Of a DNA stretch of 64,000 nucleotides, positions 49,931 to 64,000 are shown piece after piece; within the stretch, counting starts at the first letter, position 1, and every line of letters starts with the position of its first letter. A model generated the notes under the pieces. It saw nothing but the letters and a program-made list of their open reading frames with translations, was not told the DNA's origin and made no database searches. The translations under genes were made by a program, and so were the position numbers. Origin of the DNA: Arcticibacter svalbardensis MN12-7 (lineage in GTDB: Bacteria; Bacteroidota; Bacteroidia; Sphingobacteriales; Sphingobacteriaceae); contig NZ_AQPN01000049.1 in NCBI RefSeq assembly GCF_000403135.1, positions 1 to 64,000 on the forward strand. Direction: 5' to 3'.

Positions 49931-51424
49931 ATGCTGGAGTATATAATAGGAATTGATATTGGCACTGGTAGCACAAAATGTGTTGCTATGGATCTAAAGG
50001 GAGCAGTTATTGGCACCTCCCAACAGCATTACACCATCTCCCATCCGGAGCATGGTTATAGCGAACAGGACCCTGAACTAATCTGGCAGGCCTTTGTCAA
50101 ATGCTTTAAGGACCTTTTAACCAGACTTAAAGAAGATCCCCTGACCATAAGCCTGAGTACGGCGATGCATAGCGTGATCCCAACGGATGAAAATGGAATG
50201 GCACTATCCAATATGATTACCTGGGCGGATATCAGAAGCGAGAGTATAGCCACTAATCTCAAAAACTCAGCTGAAGGCGAAACCTTTTACCGTTTAACCG
50301 GCACACCTATCCATCCAATGTCGCCCTTATGTAAACTGATTTGGCTTAGGGAAAATAAAGCAGCATTGTTCAACAACACCAGCCGGTTTATTTCCATCAA
50401 GGAATATATCTGGTATAAACTCTTTCATGAATTCCAGATCGATTATTCCATTGCATCCGCTACAGGGCTGTTTGATATCAAGAAATTAAAATGGAACGAA
50501 GAAGTTTGCTCTTATGCCGGTATCGACCGTCAAAAGCTATCCACACCAGTTAACACCAGTTATAGCCGGAAAGATCTTAGTCCACATATAACTACTCTTT
50601 TAGGTTTAAAGACAAACGTTCCCTTTGTAATAGGTGCCAGCGATGGCTGCTGCGCTAACTTAGGGAGTTTTACCACTAAACCAGGAACAGCCGCACTCAC
50701 CATAGGAACCAGTGGTGCTGTCCGGATTACAGGCACAGATCCGGTATATAATTATAGCGCCATGATCTTCAATTACCTGCTTGATGAACAAACATTTGTA
50801 AGCGGCGGTGCAGTAAATAACGGGGGCAATGCAGTAAACTGGTTGCTGGAAAACTTTCTTAACAAAAGCCCGGTAAGCCCTCAAGACTATGTCAATCTAT
50901 TTAATACCATTGAAACAGTTCCTGCGGGAAGTAAGGGTCTACTATTTTTACCCTATTTGTATGGTGAACGTGCCCCAATCTGGAATGCTAAAAGTAGCGG
51001 AGCTTTTTTAAACATTCGTCCCGAACATGATCAATCCCATTTTTCAAGGGCGGTACTCGAAGGGATTTGTTACGCCTTGAACGATGTGCTAAAAACCCTC
51101 GAACAATCATCTCCCCCTATAGAACGCATAAATGTGAGCGGTGGATTCATCAGCTCGCCTACCTGGTTACAAATGTTAGCTGATATCACCGGAAAAAATC
51201 TTTATGTGCTCCAATTAGAAGATGCCTCCGCCATTGGTGCAATTTACATGGCTTTAAAAGCCCTATTCCCTGATGTTGCTTATTCAACCCCGGACCAAAA
51301 CAACACCCTCATTATTAAACCAAACATTCAAAACCACGAGTTATACGCTAAATCCTTCATCATATATAAAAAAGTAGTTCAAAATATGAAGGAATCTATG
51401 GATCTTTTCACCTCTTTAACCTAA
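49931..51424 (+). CDS. FGGY-family gluconokinase
   Basis: A 497-residue sugar kinase: MLEYIIGIDIGTGSTKCVAM (phosphate 1), GYSEQDPELIWQ, TWADIRSESIA, GASDGCCANLGSFTTKPG and LTIGTSGAVRIT (phosphate 2), NVSGGFISSPTWLQMLADIT (adenosine). This FGGY subgroup acts on gluconate and is usually next to a GntP permease, as here, although that gene is broken. It should phosphorylate gluconate to 6-phosphogluconate. The start ATG at 49931 is 7 bp after a TAA. The kinase looks intact, so it could be fed by intracellular gluconate or by another carrier. Confidence 0.9.
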   Translation: MLEYIIGIDIGTGSTKCVAMDLKGAVIGTSQQHYTISHPEHGYSEQDPELIWQAFVKCFKDLLTRLKEDPLTISLSTAMHSVIPTDENGMALSNMITWADIRSESIATNLKNSAEGETFYRLTGTPIHPMSPLCKLIWLRENKAALFNNTSRFISIKEYIWYKLFHEFQIDYSIASATGLFDIKKLKWNEEVCSYAGIDRQKLSTPVNTSYSRKDLSPHITTLLGLKTNVPFVIGASDGCCANLGSFTTKPGTAALTIGTSGAVRITGTDPVYNYSAMIFNYLLDEQTFVSGGAVNNGGNAVNWLLENFLNKSPVSPQDYVNLFNTIETVPAGSKGLLFLPYLYGERAPIWNAKSSGAFLNIRPEHDQSHFSRAVLEGICYALNDVLKTLEQSSPPIERINVSGGFISSPTWLQMLADITGKNLYVLQLEDASAIGAIYMALKALFPDVAYSTPDQNNTLIIKPNIQNHELYAKSFIIYKKVVQNMKESMDLFTSLT

Positions 51425-51431
51425 CCAATTC

Positions 51432-52189
51432 ATGGCCCTACTTTATGTCCTGGCCGGTATTATCATCTTGTTAATACTAATCTTAAAGAAGCTTAATCCA
51501 ATGCTGGCCTTGCTTATCGTATCTATCCTGACGGGATTAATGCTAAGCATGCCGCCAGAAAAACTAATGCTTTCCATTGGCAATGGTATCGGCAATACCC
51601 TTGGTGGCATGGTGATGATCCTTACCCTTGGCGCCATGGTGGGTAAACTAGCTGAAGATAGTGGTGGTTACTCATCCCGATAAGTCAGAAGTTTAAAACC
51701 ATGCAAAGCATAATCATGCAAACGGAAGAGGGACTTCCTTCTTCTTTTAAAAGTTTTGCTATCACCTTAATGCCTATTTTCCTGATTGCTGGAGGTCATA
51801 TAGGCGCTTTAATTTTCCATGGTAAACTCCAGCAGGTCTTTAGTTTTCTTGCAGCCCCTACAGTCGCCTTACTTTTATCCGTCATCATCTTATTTATCCT
51901 GAACATTGAGATAAAGAAGGCAATGGAATCCTGCGTGGAAGGCGTAAAAAGCGTCGCCATGATCATTCTGATCATTGCAGCTGGCGGTGCTTTTAAACAG
52001 GTACTTATTGATAGTGGTGTTGGTAAAGAAGTAGAGCTCATTGCCTCAACCTGGCATGCCTCACCCCTATTTCTAGGCTGGGCAATTGCTGCACTTCTAC
52101 GTATTACACTAGGGTCCTCTACTGTAGCGACACTCACCACTTCAGGCATGGTGATGCCCTTCGTTCATTCAGGCACCTCACCCGATTAG
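51432..52189 (+). pseudogene. gntP: gluconate permease gntP, internally deleted and truncated
   Basis: Piece one (51432-51683) encodes the first two or three helices (ALLYVLAGIIILLILILKK ... GAMVGKLAEDSGG) and runs into a stop. Piece two (about 51662-52189, in another frame) encodes QKFKTMQSIIMQTEEGLPSS and later helices to LLRITLGSSTVATLTTSGMV, then stops at HSGTSPD. Intact GntP permeases have ~440 residues. The part between DSGG and the second cytoplasmic region, about 150-170 residues, and the last ~70 residues are missing. The start is only 8 bp after the gluconokinase stop, so it was once the second gene of that operon. Confidence 0.85.
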
Positions 52190-52303: not shown

Positions 52304-53137
52304 TTAAATTTTTCTAGCTGCTTTGACCTCCTTTGTAAGGGCAGCCACTTCTTTCAGTAATAAAGGAAAAGCCGGCTCAGCCATGCCACCATGATCAAAA
52401 CCCTGCAGCTCATATATCCGGGTACGTTTATGTCCGACCAGCTTCATCATACGAAACAGGTAAGCGTTTTCTTCATACCGGCCAAACAACTCCATTTCAC
52501 GATCACCAGTAATTAAAAGCATGGGTGGTGCATCAGACCTCACGAAGTAAAGTGGGGCATACTCATCTATTTGAGGTTGTGTTTCTTTAATGCCCCTTTC
52601 CTGACGGATGGTAAAATGTGTAATAGCCTGTCCACTGAATGGAATAAGTCCCGCAATGCTGTTGGCATCAATATTATACTTACTTAAGTACTTTTTATCC
52701 AGCGTAACCATCATTCCCAGATAGCCACCAGCAGAGTGACCAGATACAAAAATAAGATCCGGATTTCCACCATATTCGCTGATATGCTGAAAGGCCCAGG
52801 CTATTGCTGCAGCAGCATCTTCAATATAAACAGGTGCTTTAACTTTAGGCGACAAGCGATAACCAACACCGATTACAGCATAACCTTTATCCATGAGCGC
52901 CTTTGGTATTTCTTTGCTCCCACCGGTTATACCGCCTCCGTGAAACCAAATGATGGTTGAATAGTTTTTAACTCCTTTAGGATAGTATAGATCCAGTCTG
53001 CACTGTGAGTTTTGATAAGCGTCTTTTTTGTCGGTTAAATTTGAATAATAGGGTAAGTCTTTTTCAGTAACATAAGCCTGTTGGGCATGAAGAGTCAATG
53101 TCCCTAAAAACAAAAATAGCAGGATTAAGCGTTTCAT
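52304..53137 (-). CDS. secreted alpha/beta hydrolase (acetyl esterase/carboxylesterase-like)
   Basis: A 277-residue protein with signal peptide (LILLFLFLGTLTLHAQ). Oxyanion motif HGGGITGGSKEIP, nucleophile Ser in GHSAGGYLG, acid in ITGDREMEL and His in GFDHGGMAEP. It resembles the BD-FAE/acetylxylan-type esterases of Bacteroidota, often used to deacetylate polysaccharides. It follows the ThuA gene by 35 bp on the same strand, so they are likely co-transcribed. Confidence 0.88.
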   Translation of the reverse strand: MKRLILLFLFLGTLTLHAQQAYVTEKDLPYYSNLTDKKDAYQNSQCRLDLYYPKGVKNYSTIIWFHGGGITGGSKEIPKALMDKGYAVIGVGYRLSPKVKAPVYIEDAAAAIAWAFQHISEYGGNPDLIFVSGHSAGGYLGMMVTLDKKYLSKYNIDANSIAGLIPFSGQAITHFTIRQERGIKETQPQIDEYAPLYFVRSDAPPMLLITGDREMELFGRYEENAYLFRMMKLVGHKRTRIYELQGFDHGGMAEPAFPLLLKEVAALTKEVKAARKI

Positions 53138-56982: not shown

Positions 56983-57618
56983 ATGAAACGACTAATTGCT
57001 CTTTTATCAATCATGCTCCTGTCGGTTTACAACCTTTCTGCGGAGCAGACTTATCCTAAAGATTCGGTTACTATGGGTTCTTTAAACGGAAAAGATTTTT
57101 TACTTCATTATTATCAGCAAACTTTGGATTCGCTCCAGAAAAGTGTAGAAGGATTGAGCGAAGCACAGTTGCAATTTAAAGCAGGTCCGGATCGATGGTC
57201 TATAAGCCAGTGTTTAGAACATATTGTGCTTACAGAAAAGGCAATCTTTGCTTTTGCTTCTAAAGGAATGAGTGGTACTGCAAATCCCGAACGCCGAAAA
57301 GAGATTAAAGCTACAGATGATGTAATTATAAATGGAATGAATGACAGAAGTCATAAAGCAAAAGCCGACCCGGCATTGACGGGAAAGGGGAAATACAATA
57401 CGTCCGCTGATGCAATAAAGGATTTACAAGATTACAGAAAAGTAATTCTGGACTATATCAACTCGGTTCCATTACTTGATTTGCGCAATCATGTCAGTGA
57501 CTCCCCTCTTGGTGTTATAGATGGGTTTCAATCATTTTTGTTTATCGCCGCACATACCTCCAGGCATACCTTACAGATTAAAGAAGTGAAAGCAGACGTT
57601 AATTTCCCAAAACAATAA
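56983..57618 (+). CDS. DinB-family protein, secreted
   Basis: A 211-residue four-helix-bundle DinB-like protein with a signal peptide (LLSIMLLSVYNLSAEQ). Metal-site pattern: W-S-I-S-Q-C-L-E-H-I near residue 75 (first His) and HTSRHTLQI near the end (His pair). This family includes metal-dependent thiol S-transferases and many uncharacterised proteins. It is encoded 6 bp after the VOC gene, so they are translated from one transcript. Terminator follows. Confidence 0.85.
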   Translation: MKRLIALLSIMLLSVYNLSAEQTYPKDSVTMGSLNGKDFLLHYYQQTLDSLQKSVEGLSEAQLQFKAGPDRWSISQCLEHIVLTEKAIFAFASKGMSGTANPERRKEIKATDDVIINGMNDRSHKAKADPALTGKGKYNTSADAIKDLQDYRKVILDYINSVPLLDLRNHVSDSPLGVIDGFQSFLFIAAHTSRHTLQIKEVKADVNFPKQ

Positions 57619-57678: not shown

Positions 57679-59904
57679 TTATTTCAATTTGAATGCGACA
57701 GCAGTACGAATATCAGTTGAAGATGCACCAACTAAAGCGTTAAAATCACCTGGTTCTGCAACCCAATCATGCTTTTTAGGATCGAAGAAACTCAAAGCAG
57801 TTTTATCAATGGTAAACTTAACAGTCTTTGTCTCGCCTGCTTTTAAACTAATCTTATCAAAAGCCTTCAATTCTTTTACCGGACGAGGTAAGGATGATTT
57901 CACGTCGTTGATATATAATTGAGCGATTTCCTGTCCTTCTCTTTTACCGGTATTCTTGATGTTCACTGAAAAAGTTATTTTACCATCGGCGGTCAGATCT
58001 TTTTTATCTGCAGTGACCTTTCCATATTCAAAAGTGGTATAATTTAATCCGTGACCGAAGCTGAATAAAGGTTTAATCTTTTCTTTATCTGCCCAACGGT
58101 ATCCAACAAAAATACTTTCATTGTATTTCTCTTCACCCTTTCCTGGATATACACCCAGTTTATGTGCTCCGTTGTCTGCCAGTTTTGCCGGAAAAGTAAA
58201 AGGCAATTTACCAGAAGGGTTCACATCGCCTACTAAGATGGCAGCCAAAGCATTTCCAGCTTCTGTTCCCAAATACCAACCCTGAACAATAGAAGGTACT
58301 TCATTCACCCAAGGCATGGCAACTGCATTCCCTGAAATCATTACGACTGCCAGATTCTTGTTTACTTTAGTCAGTTCAGTGATTAGTTGATCCTGGTTAT
58401 AAGGTAAACTTAAAGATGCCCGGTCATTACCTTCACTATCCTGTTTATCATTTTTATTCAAGCCACCAATATAAATCACAAAATCTGCTCCTTTAGCCAA
58501 GGTTAAAGCTTCCTTCATCAATTGATCAGCTGAACGGTTATCGGTGATACTATCTCCAGTGCTCAGTCCATCCTGTGCTTTAGGTTGCTCACCTACATAA
58601 CCCCGCGCATAAACAACCTCAGCTTGAGTGCCGATACGTTTCTTTATACCATCCAAAGGAGAGATCTCATATTTAGCTTTTAGCGATGAACTTCCTCCAC
58701 CAACAGTCATCAGCTTCACTGCATTTTCACCTATAACAACTATTTTCTTTGTTTTAGCTAAATTGATAGGCAACGTGTTGTTTTTGTTCTTTAACAATAC
58801 GATTCCCTCTTCTGCAATCTTGCGACCGGCTAAAGCATGTTCCTCTGTTGCGAAAGATCCCCAGGGACGTTTGGTATTCATATTGGTACGGAAAACCAAA
58901 CGGAGAATATTGCGGACTTTTTTATCTACTTCCTCTTCTTTCACTTCACCTGATTTCAACAATTTAAGAAAAGGATCGGCCAGATAATAGTTATCGTATG
59001 CATTGGAGGCACCCATAGTCAGACCATTGGTCCAGGAACCAAATTCCATGTCTAAGCCATGATAAATCGCTTGTTTAGTATCGTTTATTCCGCCCCAATC
59101 CGAGATAACCACTCCGTCAAAATGCCATTCGCCTCTTAAGATATCGTTCAATAGATACTGGTTTTGACCGGCCCATTGTCCTTTATATTTATTGTAAGCA
59201 CCCATGATGGCCCAGGCTTTACCTTCCTGTACCGCAGCTTTAAAAGCAGGTAAGTAGATTTCGTAAAGAGCACGGTCATCTACATCCACATTCACGGTAT
59301 GACGGTCAATTTCCTGGTTGTTTAAAGCATAATGTTTCACACAGGCAGCAACTCCATTCGATTGAACGCCCTGTATATAAGGCACAACCATTCTGGAAGA
59401 GAGCAGCGGATCTTCACCCATATATTCAAAATTTCGCCCGTTGAGTGGTGTACGGTAGATATTTACACCCGGACCAAGTAAAACATTCTTATTACGGTAA
59501 CGGGCTTCCTCGCCAATTGCTTTGCCATAAAGAGAGGATAGATCTGTATTCCATGAGGCCGCCAGACAAGTTAAAGCCGGAAAGGCGATACATGAATCAT
59601 TCGTCCAGCCTGCCTGATCCCATTTGTCCCAGAATACTTCAGCACGAATACCATGAGGTCCATCTGTCATCCAGTTTTCAGGAATCCCTAAACGAGGCAC
59701 TCCTGCTGAACTAAATTTAGATTGTGCATGGCACATCGCTACTTTTTCCTCCAGGGTCATCCTGGATAATGCATCTTCTATGCGTTGCTCAATTGTTGCC
59801 GTTTCATTTAAGTAAACAGGTAAAGTGTTCTGTGCTTCAGTCTTAGCACCTATACTGACCATTAACAAAAGAATTAAAATTGATTTTATTGGTTTTAACA
59901 TCAT
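57679..59904 (-). CDS. GH3-family beta-glucosidase
   Basis: From the ATG at 59904 the enzyme is 741 residues with a signal peptide (SILILLLMVSIGAKTEAQ), probably periplasmic. N-terminal TIM barrel: ENWMTDGPHGIRAE, NVLLGPGVNIYRTPLNGRNF, CVKHYALNNQEIDR, and the nucleophile Asp in VVISDWGGIND. C-terminal alpha/beta sandwich and FN3-like domain: GIVLLKNKNNTLPI, VVMISGNAVAMPW, EIAQLYINDVKSSLPRPVKE. A start at 59940 adds a polar leader and is less likely. Last gene of the SusD-GH30-SusE-like-GH3 operon. It likely releases glucose from imported beta-glucan oligosaccharides. Confidence 0.93.
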   Translation of the reverse strand: MMLKPIKSILILLLMVSIGAKTEAQNTLPVYLNETATIEQRIEDALSRMTLEEKVAMCHAQSKFSSAGVPRLGIPENWMTDGPHGIRAEVFWDKWDQAGWTNDSCIAFPALTCLAASWNTDLSSLYGKAIGEEARYRNKNVLLGPGVNIYRTPLNGRNFEYMGEDPLLSSRMVVPYIQGVQSNGVAACVKHYALNNQEIDRHTVNVDVDDRALYEIYLPAFKAAVQEGKAWAIMGAYNKYKGQWAGQNQYLLNDILRGEWHFDGVVISDWGGINDTKQAIYHGLDMEFGSWTNGLTMGASNAYDNYYLADPFLKLLKSGEVKEEEVDKKVRNILRLVFRTNMNTKRPWGSFATEEHALAGRKIAEEGIVLLKNKNNTLPINLAKTKKIVVIGENAVKLMTVGGGSSSLKAKYEISPLDGIKKRIGTQAEVVYARGYVGEQPKAQDGLSTGDSITDNRSADQLMKEALTLAKGADFVIYIGGLNKNDKQDSEGNDRASLSLPYNQDQLITELTKVNKNLAVVMISGNAVAMPWVNEVPSIVQGWYLGTEAGNALAAILVGDVNPSGKLPFTFPAKLADNGAHKLGVYPGKGEEKYNESIFVGYRWADKEKIKPLFSFGHGLNYTTFEYGKVTADKKDLTADGKITFSVNIKNTGKREGQEIAQLYINDVKSSLPRPVKELKAFDKISLKAGETKTVKFTIDKTALSFFDPKKHDWVAEPGDFNALVGASSTDIRTAVAFKLK

Positions 59905-59969
59905 GTATGCATCTATTTTATAGTTCTCATCTGAACTCACATTGAACTTAATTACCTGTTTACTATTGC

Positions 59970-61304
59970 TTATTTTTTAACAACGGTCATTACTGCTTTA
60001 TCGTTTCCAGCGCTTAAGTCAACTGTTATGACATAAGTAGCCCCAGTTTCGAGAGTGGTTCCAGTAGGAATTCCTAAATTCCCTGAATCGCGGCCATTCG
60101 TACCATCACCTATAAAGAGGAGAGTACTCGTCGTAGTTAAACCTGTATTTTTAAATTCACCTCCCCATCCTTTTTGATAGAAGAACTTGAAGTTAATTAC
60201 GTCAGCCTTTACAGTAGTACCGGCCACTACGGTCATCTGATATTTCTTATTTCCTATTGGAGCCATACAAAGGGCCTTTTCAGTAGTCCAGCCAACTTGA
60301 TTTGTAGCTACAGAAGGTTTCCCGATTCCTTCGCCAATAATCCACATCGCGCCAGTGCCATCATTCTGCAAAGTTGCCAGAGCCGTTCCGTTTAAGGCTT
60401 CAACAATGAAGTACTTCATTGTAAAGTTTGCGGTTATACGGTAGTTCCCGGTAATAGGAAGGAAAGTCAATTTACCACTTGCATCTTTACTGAAGTAATC
60501 AGGATCGATCCACCAATTAGCCAAATCTTCGATACCATCAATGGTTACTTCCTGGCCTTTTGTCAGTGCTAAATCAGCCTTGAAATTATTATCATCAACC
60601 CGACTCAACACGTTACCGTTTACGGCATAAGCGATAATAAATGGAGCTGCCTGATAATTAAAGGTATTAAATACAATTGAATAAGTACCTGATGATGAAT
60701 TAGAGAAAGGAATATTGGTCATTGAGCCGTTAATAACAGCATTATCTTCCCAACCAAATGTAATCTCATTTCCGTATGTCCCAACTGCAGGTGCCTTAAT
60801 GTAACCTTTAACAGTGAACGGGAATACTTGGGTAGCAGCGTAATTGTATAAACTTTTACGGTCCATTCTGTATTCATGATCTTCCGTAACTAAAGTCAGG
60901 TAAGGATAATCAGGTCTTGTTAATGGTAAATCGTATGATGTTTCGGTAATGGTTAAATGAATATTTTGCAGCACAAATTTCAATGTTGCTGTACCATTCG
61001 GAACATTCGCATAATAAGGAATGTAAATTTTGCTTGTATATTCACCATTTGTTTTAGTACGTATAACGGTCTCTGAAACCATTTCGTCGCTATAAAACAA
61101 TTGAACTTTCACTGTAGACAGTGGAACATCTGCATCAGATACATTGACCTTGAATTGCAAACTGTCGCCAAACAGGGCTCCCTGGGTATATTGAGTTGGA
61201 GAATCAACCACTGGATTGCCAGCAGATTGGGCTTCATCTTTCTTACAGGAGTTGAAAAAAATCGTCCCCGATACTACGAATAATATATATAGATATGTTT
61301 TCAT
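59970..61304 (-). CDS. SusE-like surface glycan-binding lipoprotein
   Basis: From the ATG at 61304 the product is 444 residues with lipobox SGTIFFNSCKKDE. A longer start at 61328 would overlap the GH30 stop. The N-terminal ~100 residues form Ig-like strands (SLQFKVNVSDADVPLSTVKV), followed by further beta-sandwich modules (GYIKAPAVGTYGNEITFGWE, TFNYQAAPFIIAYAVNG) and a SusE/F-like C-terminal domain (GNYRITANFTMKYFIVEALN, MWIIGEGIGKPSVATNQVG). It should bind the polysaccharide at the surface. Encoded between the GH30 and GH3 genes. Confidence 0.85.
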   Translation of the reverse strand: MKTYLYILFVVSGTIFFNSCKKDEAQSAGNPVVDSPTQYTQGALFGDSLQFKVNVSDADVPLSTVKVQLFYSDEMVSETVIRTKTNGEYTSKIYIPYYANVPNGTATLKFVLQNIHLTITETSYDLPLTRPDYPYLTLVTEDHEYRMDRKSLYNYAATQVFPFTVKGYIKAPAVGTYGNEITFGWEDNAVINGSMTNIPFSNSSSGTYSIVFNTFNYQAAPFIIAYAVNGNVLSRVDDNNFKADLALTKGQEVTIDGIEDLANWWIDPDYFSKDASGKLTFLPITGNYRITANFTMKYFIVEALNGTALATLQNDGTGAMWIIGEGIGKPSVATNQVGWTTEKALCMAPIGNKKYQMTVVAGTTVKADVINFKFFYQKGWGGEFKNTGLTTTSTLLFIGDGTNGRDSGNLGIPTGTTLETGATYVITVDLSAGNDKAVMTVVKK

Positions 61305-61321
61305 ATTAATATTCTTTTTTA

Positions 61322-62821
61322 TTACCAACGATAGGAAACAATTGATTTTGATGGTACACTATAACTGAAGTGTTTTACTCCGTCACTTAAGGTGATATTC
61401 TTTACATCAGTGGTGTTATTAAGCAGGACAAATGCATAGGTTCCGTCTGTATTCTTGAAAGCAGAATAAGTAACACCAGTTGCCGAATATCCACTCGCAC
61501 CAATTCGCACCGCTCCAGGTTTTACAACCGCTGAAAGATGACCGATAATGTAATAGTGCGAATTTTTAGTGATCGTTTTGTAGTCAGATTTATTGATATC
61601 TACAGCACCATAACAAGTCTGACATCCGCCCTCACGATTTGGACCACGCTCCGTATCAAGCATCAAGTTCCATACGATCACAGCCTTGCTCCAATTGTTT
61701 ATCGTACCCAAACCTACATCTTGCATATCATCCATCAGGCGGGTAGACAAGTTCTGACCATCATTCCATGTTCCAATAGAAGTTTCCGTAAAAATCAGAT
61801 CTTTATCAGGACGTTGATTATGGATGTCTAACAGTTCTGCTTTGTCGCCTCCATAGTTATGGTAGGCAGCACCTGCCACATAAGCGGCAGCTGCTGCATC
61901 CTTGTATATGTTTACAGGATAGTCGTTTTGAGAGGCGACTTTATCGTAATCATAATTATGATCGAACAGATAGATTTTAGTAGCCAAACCGGCTGCTTTT
62001 AACTTAGGTCCTAAAGCAGTTTTAATAAAAGCCAGCTGTTCTTCCCAACCCATGTATAAGGATGCAGAATTACCCCGGTTCAATGGTTCATTCTGTGGAG
62101 TGACGGCATTTATTGTGACTCCTTTTGCAGCCATTGCCTGAATCCATTTTACAAAATAGGTACCGTAATCCGAATAATATATAGGATTAAGCTGTCCACT
62201 TGTCCATGAATTGAAGGGTTGTAAATCAGTTAGATTATTCACCTTCATCCAACGGGGACTAGTCCATGGAGCTGCTATGATCTTAATATTCGGATTGATT
62301 GCCAGGATTTCCTTTAAAATGGGGATGATATAGTTATTCTCCTCATTTTGCAATCCAAAGTTTTCTATCCCTGGAGTATCCCAACAAGTGTACTCACTTA
62401 AAGAGAAGTCAGAGCAACCAATTGCAATACGGATATAGCTTTGTCCCATGCCTTCAGTTTCAGAGAAAGTTTCCTTTAAGAATTTGGTCCTGTCAGCCTG
62501 TGCCATCTTTAGCAAGTTATAACAAGTAGAACCTGTTATAGCGGCACCGAAACCATCCATAGTTTGATAAGTCGTGGTTGGATCTAAAGTGATCGTGGTT
62601 GGCGACATATTAGAGGTCTTACTAAAATCAACAAACTTTTTAGCAAAATCAGACGAACGGTTATTGGTTGTAACATAAATGGTCACATCTCCTGTAGTCG
62701 CAACCGGATCGGGAGTTATTGGTTCTGTTGTACTTTTATCCGTACCGCAAGCCGTTAATATGGAGCTTAAAAGGCAAATAGCCAGTATTGCGCTTTTTAA
62801 ATTTTCGGTATACTTCTTCAT
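61322..62821 (-). CDS. GH30-family endo-beta-1,6-glucanase-like lipoprotein
   Basis: A 499-residue surface lipoprotein enzyme (lipobox LLSSILTACGTDKS). GH30 motifs: TMDGFGAAITGSTCYNLL, SYIRIAIGCSDFS, APWTSPRWMK, acid/base Glu in TPQNEPLN and nucleophile Glu in DLIFTETSIGTW. This is the subfamily 3 look of beta-1,6-glucanases. GH30_3 acts on fungal-type beta-1,6-glucan, matching the GH3 and SusE-like partners in the operon. It starts 10 bp after the SusD stop. Confidence 0.92.
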   Translation of the reverse strand: MKKYTENLKSAILAICLLSSILTACGTDKSTTEPITPDPVATTGDVTIYVTTNNRSSDFAKKFVDFSKTSNMSPTTITLDPTTTYQTMDGFGAAITGSTCYNLLKMAQADRTKFLKETFSETEGMGQSYIRIAIGCSDFSLSEYTCWDTPGIENFGLQNEENNYIIPILKEILAINPNIKIIAAPWTSPRWMKVNNLTDLQPFNSWTSGQLNPIYYSDYGTYFVKWIQAMAAKGVTINAVTPQNEPLNRGNSASLYMGWEEQLAFIKTALGPKLKAAGLATKIYLFDHNYDYDKVASQNDYPVNIYKDAAAAAYVAGAAYHNYGGDKAELLDIHNQRPDKDLIFTETSIGTWNDGQNLSTRLMDDMQDVGLGTINNWSKAVIVWNLMLDTERGPNREGGCQTCYGAVDINKSDYKTITKNSHYYIIGHLSAVVKPGAVRIGASGYSATGVTYSAFKNTDGTYAFVLLNNTTDVKNITLSDGVKHFSYSVPSKSIVSYRW

Positions 62822-62831
62822 ATTGATTATA

Positions 62832-64000
62832 TTAATAGCCAGGGTTTTGAACCAGATTAGGATTTTGGTCCATTACAGCCTGAGGTATAGGTAAAAGGTA
62901 AGAGTCTGTATTAAATTTGTATACGAGTGTTTTTCTTCCTGAATCCTTAGCAAAGACAGCGTTCATCACGGTCTCTACTTTATCTAAGCGAACTAAGTCG
63001 AACCAACGCTGACCTTCAAAAGCCAATTCTAAACGACGTTCCTTTAAAAGTGCGTCTAACATGGCATCCTTATTACCTCGAACAGATGTAGGTAGTTTTG
63101 CTAAACCTACACGTAAACGAATCCGGTCAATGATGTCGGCTGCTGCAGATAAATTTGGGCTAGTACCCATAATGAGTGCTTCAGCTTTAAGCAGAAGAAC
63201 ATCAGCATATCTGAATTTGATGATACTGTTGTATGCCGACCTTGTTTTGTACATGAAAGGGTAATTGATGGCAGGATAATAATTGCTCCAGGTAGTTTGA
63301 TAGTACACAATCGATTCGGAATAGCGGGTTTGATCACCTTCATCCTGAAATGCTTTAATCAGATTGCGTGAAGGAGTGATCCACTTAGCCCAGGTAAAGC
63401 TATTGCCGTAATTGCTTAAATCCCGTCCTAACATCCAGGTAACCCAGTTTCCTCCACCTGTGAAGAATTGCGCTTCGAGTATAGACTCCTTGGTATTTCT
63501 AACTTTAGCATCAGTCTTTGTTGCGTTCATGCCAAACAGATCACTATAATCAGTTACCAAATCAAAGCCATCTGCTGTAATTGCATCACAGTATTGGATC
63601 ACTTTGGAATAGTCTCTGAGCGTTTTTTCAGCGTATATTTTAGCTAATAATGTGCGGGCAACTGATTTAGTAAACAGCGTTTTATTGGTCGCGTTATTGT
63701 TTGGAGCAGAAACTAAAGCTTCGAGCAAATCTTTTTCAATCTGGCGGTAAGCTTCTTCCTGTGTATTTTGTGCAGGAAAGTAATCACCATAGACATCTCC
63801 TATGGTTTCCGAAGTGATATCTCCTGCTTCTTTTGTAATCACAGGAATTGATCCCCAAAGACGAACCATATCAAAAAGAACCATTGCTCTGAAGATTTTA
63901 CCCTGCGCTTTGATCTCTTCCCTTTGAGTATTGGTAAATGAGTTGTCTACTACAGAGTCTACATTATTAATTAATCTGTTCGCACGGGCAACATCTTCCA
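62832..64000 (-). CDS. SusD/RagB-family nutrient-binding lipoprotein (5' part outside window)
   Basis: The frame ends at 62832 and stays open to the window edge. Before the Met at 63884 it continues DVARANRLINNVDSVVDNSF, so that Met is internal and the real start lies outside. SusD hallmarks: AMVLFDMVRLWGSIPVITKE, TLLAKIYAEKTLRDYSKVI, RYADVLLLKAEALIMGTSP, LKERRLELAFEGQRWFDLVR and the C-terminal LLPIPQAVMDQNPNLVQNPG. It should work with a SusC encoded upstream, off the window. First visible gene of the beta-glucan operon. Confidence 0.95.
   Translation of the reverse strand, partial: EDVARANRLINNVDSVVDNSFTNTQREEIKAQGKIFRAMVLFDMVRLWGSIPVITKEAGDITSETIGDVYGDYFPAQNTQEEAYRQIEKDLLEALVSAPNNNATNKTLFTKSVARTLLAKIYAEKTLRDYSKVIQYCDAITADGFDLVTDYSDLFGMNATKTDAKVRNTKESILEAQFFTGGGNWVTWMLGRDLSNYGNSFTWAKWITPSRNLIKAFQDEGDQTRYSESIVYYQTTWSNYYPAINYPFMYKTRSAYNSIIKFRYADVLLLKAEALIMGTSPNLSAAADIIDRIRLRVGLAKLPTSVRGNKDAMLDALLKERRLELAFEGQRWFDLVRLDKVETVMNAVFAKDSGRKTLVYKFNTDSYLLPIPQAVMDQNPNLVQNPGY

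Follow-up and report, generated by a model that had tools for sequence, protein, structure and literature searches.

A predicted beta-1,6-glucan utilisation locus of the BT3309-BT3314 type in Arcticibacter svalbardensis and the geometry of its control region

Introduction

In Bacteroides thetaiotaomicron, the polysaccharide utilisation locus (PUL) for beta-1,6-glucan comprises, in the account of Temple et al. 2017, a SusR-type regulator (BT3309), a SusCD pair (BT3310-11), an enzyme of glycoside hydrolase (GH) subfamily GH30_3 (BT3312), a surface glycan-binding protein (SGBP, BT3313) and a GH3 enzyme (BT3314) (PMC5481569). Here we describe a locus at one end of a 64,000-nucleotide stretch of the Arcticibacter svalbardensis MN12-7 genome (4.69 Mb). 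This stretch, called the window below, is bases 1-64000 of contig C49, which is 84,418 bases long. Judging from sequence, we hold with high confidence that the locus is the orthologue of BT3309-BT3314 and forms a complete PUL for beta-1,6-glucan of the pustulan type. A system for fungal beta-1,6-glucan that has been studied in detail in gut bacteria would thereby extend to Sphingobacteriaceae such as Arcticibacter.

Two other described systems of the phylum invite comparison. FlGlu30 from the endophytic Flavobacterium sp. NAU1659 is, by its description, another Bacteroidota endo-beta-1,6-glucanase active on pustulan, and the work on it is a single-enzyme study, whereas a whole locus is treated here (PMC11319602). 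The fungal cell wall utilization locus of Chitinophaga pinensis is likewise presented as a PUL directed at the fungal wall, in a soil-dwelling member of the phylum. It differs in its targets (chitin and beta-1,3-glucan), its enzymes (chitinases and a beta-1,3-glucanase) and its other gene content (PMC10449523). No earlier report of the locus in Arcticibacter was found in the open-licence literature, which is weak evidence of absence. The locus clearly belongs to a known system, of which it is an unremarkable new member; what is added here is the geometry of its control region, the repeat form of which had been predicted in 2013.

Gene content and order

The original prediction, made from the window alone, had placed SusD, a GH30 lipoprotein, a SusE-like lipoprotein and GH3 in one operon, and open reading frame (ORF) coordinates and Pfam matches confirmed the four genes head to tail on the minus strand. 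When the contig was followed upstream beyond position 64000, as had been proposed, SusC and a SusR-type regulator were found on the same strand. The genes of the locus are listed below.

62832..64000, minus strand: SusD-like putative surface lipoprotein, open at the window edge, C-terminal 388 aa in the window; Pfam SusD_RagB and SusD-like_3
Contig 62832-64352, minus strand: complete SusD, 506 aa
61322..62821, minus strand: GH30 (BT3312 type), predicted endo-beta-1,6-glucanase; Pfam Glyco_hydro_30 and 30C; lipobox LTAC (by eye)
59970..61304 (from ATG), minus strand: putative surface glycan-binding lipoprotein in the SusE position (BT3313 position); Pfam DUF5016-DUF5125-DUF5121
57679..59904 (from ATG), minus strand: predicted GH3 beta-glucosidase (BT3314 position); Pfam Glyco_hydro_3, 3_C and Fn3-like; type I-like signal peptide (by eye)
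Contig 64365-67340, minus strand: SusC, 991 aa, beyond the window edge
Contig 67552-69177, minus strand: SusR-type regulator, 541 residues, DUF6377 match, beyond the window edge

The order SusR, SusC, SusD, GH30, SGBP, GH3 matches BT3309-BT3314, as had been claimed. The sensor and SusC had been correctly located outside the window; the regulator itself is SusR-type, as in B. thetaiotaomicron, and not a two-component sensor. Relative to the B. thetaiotaomicron locus, the six genes and their order are thus the same, and the differences lie in the host, which belongs to another order of the phylum (Sphingobacteriales) and lacks GH76 matches, and in the substrate of the present locus, which is a predicted one.

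The intergenic gaps SusD-GH30, GH30-SGBP and SGBP-GH3 measure 10, 17 and 65 bp. GH3 is the final gene of the locus and faces a convergent neighbour that ends at 57618; at the other end, a divergent major facilitator superfamily (MFS) gene lies beyond the regulator on the contig. Scanning for sigma-70 promoters and terminators behind GH3 yielded two promoter-like sites, not clearly above chance (0.9 expected, sd 1.0), and no terminators.

The GH30 enzyme

The GH30 enzyme was compared directly with BT3312 (PDB 5NGK), and 327 of 464 aligned residues were identical (70.5%). The same entry was its best solved structure, at 774 bits with the runner-up at 144 bits, and the enzyme passed the NCBIfam equivalog NF053856 (BT3312 endo-1,6-beta-glucanase) with 866.9 bits against a cut-off of 700. 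All 13 active-site residues of BT3312 named by Temple et al. 2017 are kept: D131, W179, N237, E238, N244, H281, N282, D286, E339, W345, W377, C393 and C396. W345 and the C393-C396 pair belong to the -2 subsite in that description (PMC5481569). The motifs TPQNEP and TETSIG, singled out in the original prediction, are present and coincide with the acid/base and nucleophile glutamates of BT3312. Across 79 of 80 relatives, the sole departures at the 13 residues were gaps in loci L054 (D131) and L062 (D286) and a change of C396 to G in L065 and L081. By its sequence, then, the enzyme is a BT3312 orthologue with catalytic and subsite residues kept.

GH30 is a family of several activities, its solved relatives including glucosylceramidases and xylanases, and a 1,6-galactanase has been published (PMC13431644). 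These facts speak for a scenario in which the enzyme drifted to another beta-linked substrate (e.g., 1,6-beta-galactan or glucosylceramide) with the gene order retained. We consider such drift very unlikely given the identity to BT3312, the full set of active-site residues, the equivalog score and partner genes (SusD, SGBP and GH3) that are the same.

Partner proteins and proposed mechanism

Apart from the signals listed above, a lipoprotein box was read by eye on SusD and a lipobox-like NSC on the SGBP. The latter protein is 47% identical to the SGBP of the Bacteroides neonati locus and carries DUF5016, domains of which are also described for the BT3313 SGBP; Temple et al. took more than 35% identity to BT3313 plus a lipoprotein signal as their criterion for an SGBP (PMC5481569). 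It matched no solved structure and no NCBIfam model. For GH3, the nearest solved structure was 8VA7 (942 bits). The regulator scored above the NCBIfam SusR equivalog cut-off (632.2 versus 480 bits), and its membrane span and C-terminal helix-turn-helix were read by eye only.

The mechanism we propose is carried over from published B. thetaiotaomicron work. The SGBP and SusD lipoproteins would hold the glucan at the cell surface, and the GH30 lipoprotein would cut inside its chain. SusC would take in the resulting oligosaccharides, from which a periplasmic GH3 would free glucose. The SusR-type membrane regulator would sense the imported saccharide and turn on the susC operon via a direct-repeat operator upstream of susC.

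Several points weigh against reading the locus as a PUL for beta-1,6-glucan. The substrate is assigned for this organism from sequence alone, and direct comparison with B. thetaiotaomicron proteins covers GH30 only. GH3 stayed under every NCBIfam cut-off, its best match being an arabinopyranosidase model (522 versus 1300 bits). Finally, neither GH76 nor GH18 was matched in the A. svalbardensis genome, which therefore does not demonstrate a broader programme against fungal walls.

Genome context and source of the glucan

The genome contains five GH30 matches, two GH16 matches and five full-length GH92 genes among nine matched stretches. By the GH76, GH18, GH16 and GH92 markers (GH19, GH55, GH64 and GH128 lie outside this set), it is not that of a broad fungal-wall degrader. 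This fits the description of the beta-1,6-glucan locus as more widespread than mannan use (PMC5481569).

Use of fungal beta-1,6-glucan had been predicted for a soil or plant-associated organism. Gene content, order, catalytic residues and upstream genes fit the predicted use, and the source would probably be fungal or lichen material; the habitat is suggested only by the nearest relatives, Arcticibacter and Desertivirga. Beta-1,6-glucans are also supplied by oomycete walls, algal laminarin branches and bacteria. A source of this non-fungal kind is favoured by the missing general fungal-wall kit (no GH76, no GH18, only two GH16), and we rate it as rather unlikely.

Distribution among relatives

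We scanned one genome per species and found 90 GH30 relatives, of which 80 were kept. To count neighbouring genes, we used tblastn with fixed limits on distance and identity, and intervening genes were allowed. SusC and SusD were located upstream of GH30 on the same strand in 54 of the 80 loci, and all six genes were in order in 16, including those of Bacteroides neonati, Parabacteroides, Dysgonomonas, Arcticibacter and Desertivirga. Because of these two counts, the order is not regarded as a chance neighbourhood. Adjacency of SusC/SusD to GH30 varied among the 54, some having an SGBP match or more than 1 kb in between. Four of the 16 six-gene loci (L023, L025, L037 and L038) had an additional SGBP match between SusD and GH30, and SusC and GH3 were broken in frame in another (L022). 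By our criteria, the other five genes were all unmatched in 23 of the 80 loci, partly due to contig ends. Within the phylum, GH30 matches at E<=1e-100 were present in seven of 395 genomes, own genome included; identities in the others were 74, 68, 57, 44, 42 and 42%. The relatives of the locus constitute an orthologue set ready for probing GH30 specificity.

Five genes without GH3 in place were found in 18 of the 80 loci, namely 14 of Sphingobacterium plus L046, L055, L065 and L069. The contig ends in L046, an SGBP-like match (27%) precedes GH30 in L055, and GH3 lies upstream of SusC instead in L069. The 14 loci represent every Sphingobacterium on the list, and GH3 was missing from all of them. 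Downstream of four (L015, L018, L026 and L036), the typed genes included a lactonase, asparaginases, MutS, a P-type ATPase and a transglycosylase. Relocation of GH3 in Sphingobacterium was considered and rejected, as the best GH3 genome-wide did not exceed 37% identity in the eight of 14 genomes searched; by contrast, GH3 identity was 95% in Arcticibacter eurypsychrophilus and 86% in Desertivirga.

Individual loci showed further variation. SGBP matches flanked GH30 on both sides, as if duplicated, in five loci of metagenome-assembled genomes (MAGs) titled Tannerellaceae or Prevotellaceae (L021, L023, L025, L037 and L038). In Arcticibacter pallidicorallinus, an additional gene, for a BD-FAE-type esterase, separated SGBP from GH3 (L008:12933-13748); a protein with the same Pfam families is encoded in the window at 52304-53137, outside the locus. 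A GH5 enzyme occupied the place expected for GH3 in Bacteroides sp. 519 (L017:13764-15014). The SusR of Sphingobacterium alkalisoli (L015:3652-5256) may be broken in frame, with an open piece of 156 residues against 536 residues by tblastn.

Nearest relatives and history of the locus

A. eurypsychrophilus was the nearest relative fetched, with 93% identity for GH30 and 86-95% for the six genes; GH30 identity was 82% for A. pallidicorallinus and 81% for Desertivirga. Of seven flanking genes examined, six had matches inside the A. eurypsychrophilus locus as well (79-98%), and none had a match in the loci fetched for A. pallidicorallinus, Desertivirga and one Dysgonomonas.

The GH30s of Dysgonomonas (Bacteroidales) were 74-76% identical to the A. 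svalbardensis enzyme, compared to 64-71% for Sphingobacterium, a genus of the same family. These identities raised the suspicion that the Arcticibacter lineage had recently acquired the locus from Dysgonomonas by horizontal transfer. The trees, under the models used, rejected this. In the GH30 tree (47 rows), the 18 Sphingobacteriaceae rows stayed together (88/95, not starred). A quick tree was also built from four alignments joined together (46 rows); in it, Sphingobacteriaceae were united at 99.9 in the Shimodaira-Hasegawa-like approximate likelihood ratio test (SH-aLRT), and a single clade of the Arcticibacter group and Dysgonomonas was rejected by the approximately unbiased test (p-AU 0.0019). 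This second tree relied on a simpler model, and flags were raised on three rows for odd composition and on three for long branches. We thus regard the Dysgonomonas transfer as highly improbable, and a single origin of the locus in Sphingobacteriaceae is the simplest reading. Since the root was not inferred, the trees would also accommodate an older transfer into the family.

Control region upstream of susC

In 32 loci, we compared the interval that separates SusR from SusC. In 25 of them, susC was preceded by a direct repeat made of two copies of a (G/T)TACTTTTT-like word 64-67 bp apart (65 bp in 11); in a few loci, the word reads CTACTTTTT. The repeat of A. svalbardensis lies at C49:67459-67531 with a spacing of 65 bp and GTACTTATT as its second copy. 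With the strict word TACTTT and a spacing of 45-75, a pair was detected in 22 of the 32 loci versus 0.62 expected from first-order Markov shuffles. A. svalbardensis and A. eurypsychrophilus are missing from these 22, since TACTTT is not matched by their second copy. The 64-67 bp rule, which allows a laxer second copy, was chosen once the alignment had been viewed, and the repeat counts give no probability because the loci are related. Among the seven loci without a pair, two fit the laxer word at 66-67 bp, including B. neonati (CCACTTTTT and CCACTTATT, 67 bp), and L085 showed a weaker fit at 72-76 bp; the gaps of L040, L044, L055 and L065 held no repeat pair even with the laxer word.

The second copy is followed by a TAnnTTTG box, which we take to be the Bacteroidetes -7 element, at 42-43 bp in nine loci and at 53-54 bp in 13. 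The box was hence found at those distances in 22 of the 25 loci, against 0.6 expected by shuffles. The exact box was absent in the other three (L010, L013 and L063), L013 having TAATTTTA at 42. The 42-43 bp group consisted of Arcticibacter, Desertivirga, one Dysgonomonas, Tannerellaceae, Prevotellaceae and Capnocytophaga, and the distance was also 42 in B. neonati and L025. The 53-54 bp group contained Sphingobacterium only, with all 13 Sphingobacterium loci of the 25, and this spacing very likely goes back to one event. The two groups differ by 11 bp, or about one helical turn. The repeat spacer of A. svalbardensis and A. eurypsychrophilus also includes a strong hairpin with a T run behind it (spacer energies of -24.3 and -21.6 kcal/mol), likely the terminator of the regulator gene.

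For SusR regulators including BT3309 (SusR3), Ravcheev et al. 2013 predicted direct repeats at a distance of 67 or 77 bp, the monomers sitting on the same side of the DNA (PMC3878776). The A. svalbardensis repeat, a putative operator, agrees with the SusR3 prediction in form and in distance (within 2-3 bp of 67), as compared by geometry and not by motif letters. Both are two-site direct repeats with a long spacer before the operon, at 64-67 bp here and, measured between centres, at 67 or 77 bp in the 2013 prediction. The earlier study is described as covering 11 Bacteroides genomes (PMC3878776), whereas the repeat was found here in Sphingobacteriaceae, Dysgonomonas, Tannerellaceae, Prevotellaceae MAGs and Capnocytophaga.

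We give roughly even chances to the idea that the SusR-type activator uses a rigid geometry across three Bacteroidota orders, with half-sites about six turns apart and the second one 42-43 bp (about four turns) before the box, or 53-54 bp and on the same helix face in Sphingobacterium. If so, SusR would reach RNA polymerase from a fixed helix face, and insertion of one turn would be tolerated. The binding mode of SusR regulators was called poorly studied in 2013 (PMC3878776); the conserved repeat and the one-turn shift make it directly testable with reporter constructs, and the repeat and promoter geometry is the part of the locus worth following up. As a search pattern, the repeat alone is not specific genome-wide, because it gave three matches in the A. 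svalbardensis genome versus four with a reversed control, and none of the six genes lay within about 1.5 kb of the other two matches; no wider regulon emerged from this pattern.

Other observations in the genome

On contig C60 (2910-25431), one GH30 and three GH92 matches were found within about 23 kb, perhaps marking another glycan locus. In the window, a 162-aa ORF at 51701-52189 adjoins an FGGY sugar kinase at 49931-51424. This ORF resembles a piece of a gluconate permease and is possibly a broken gene.

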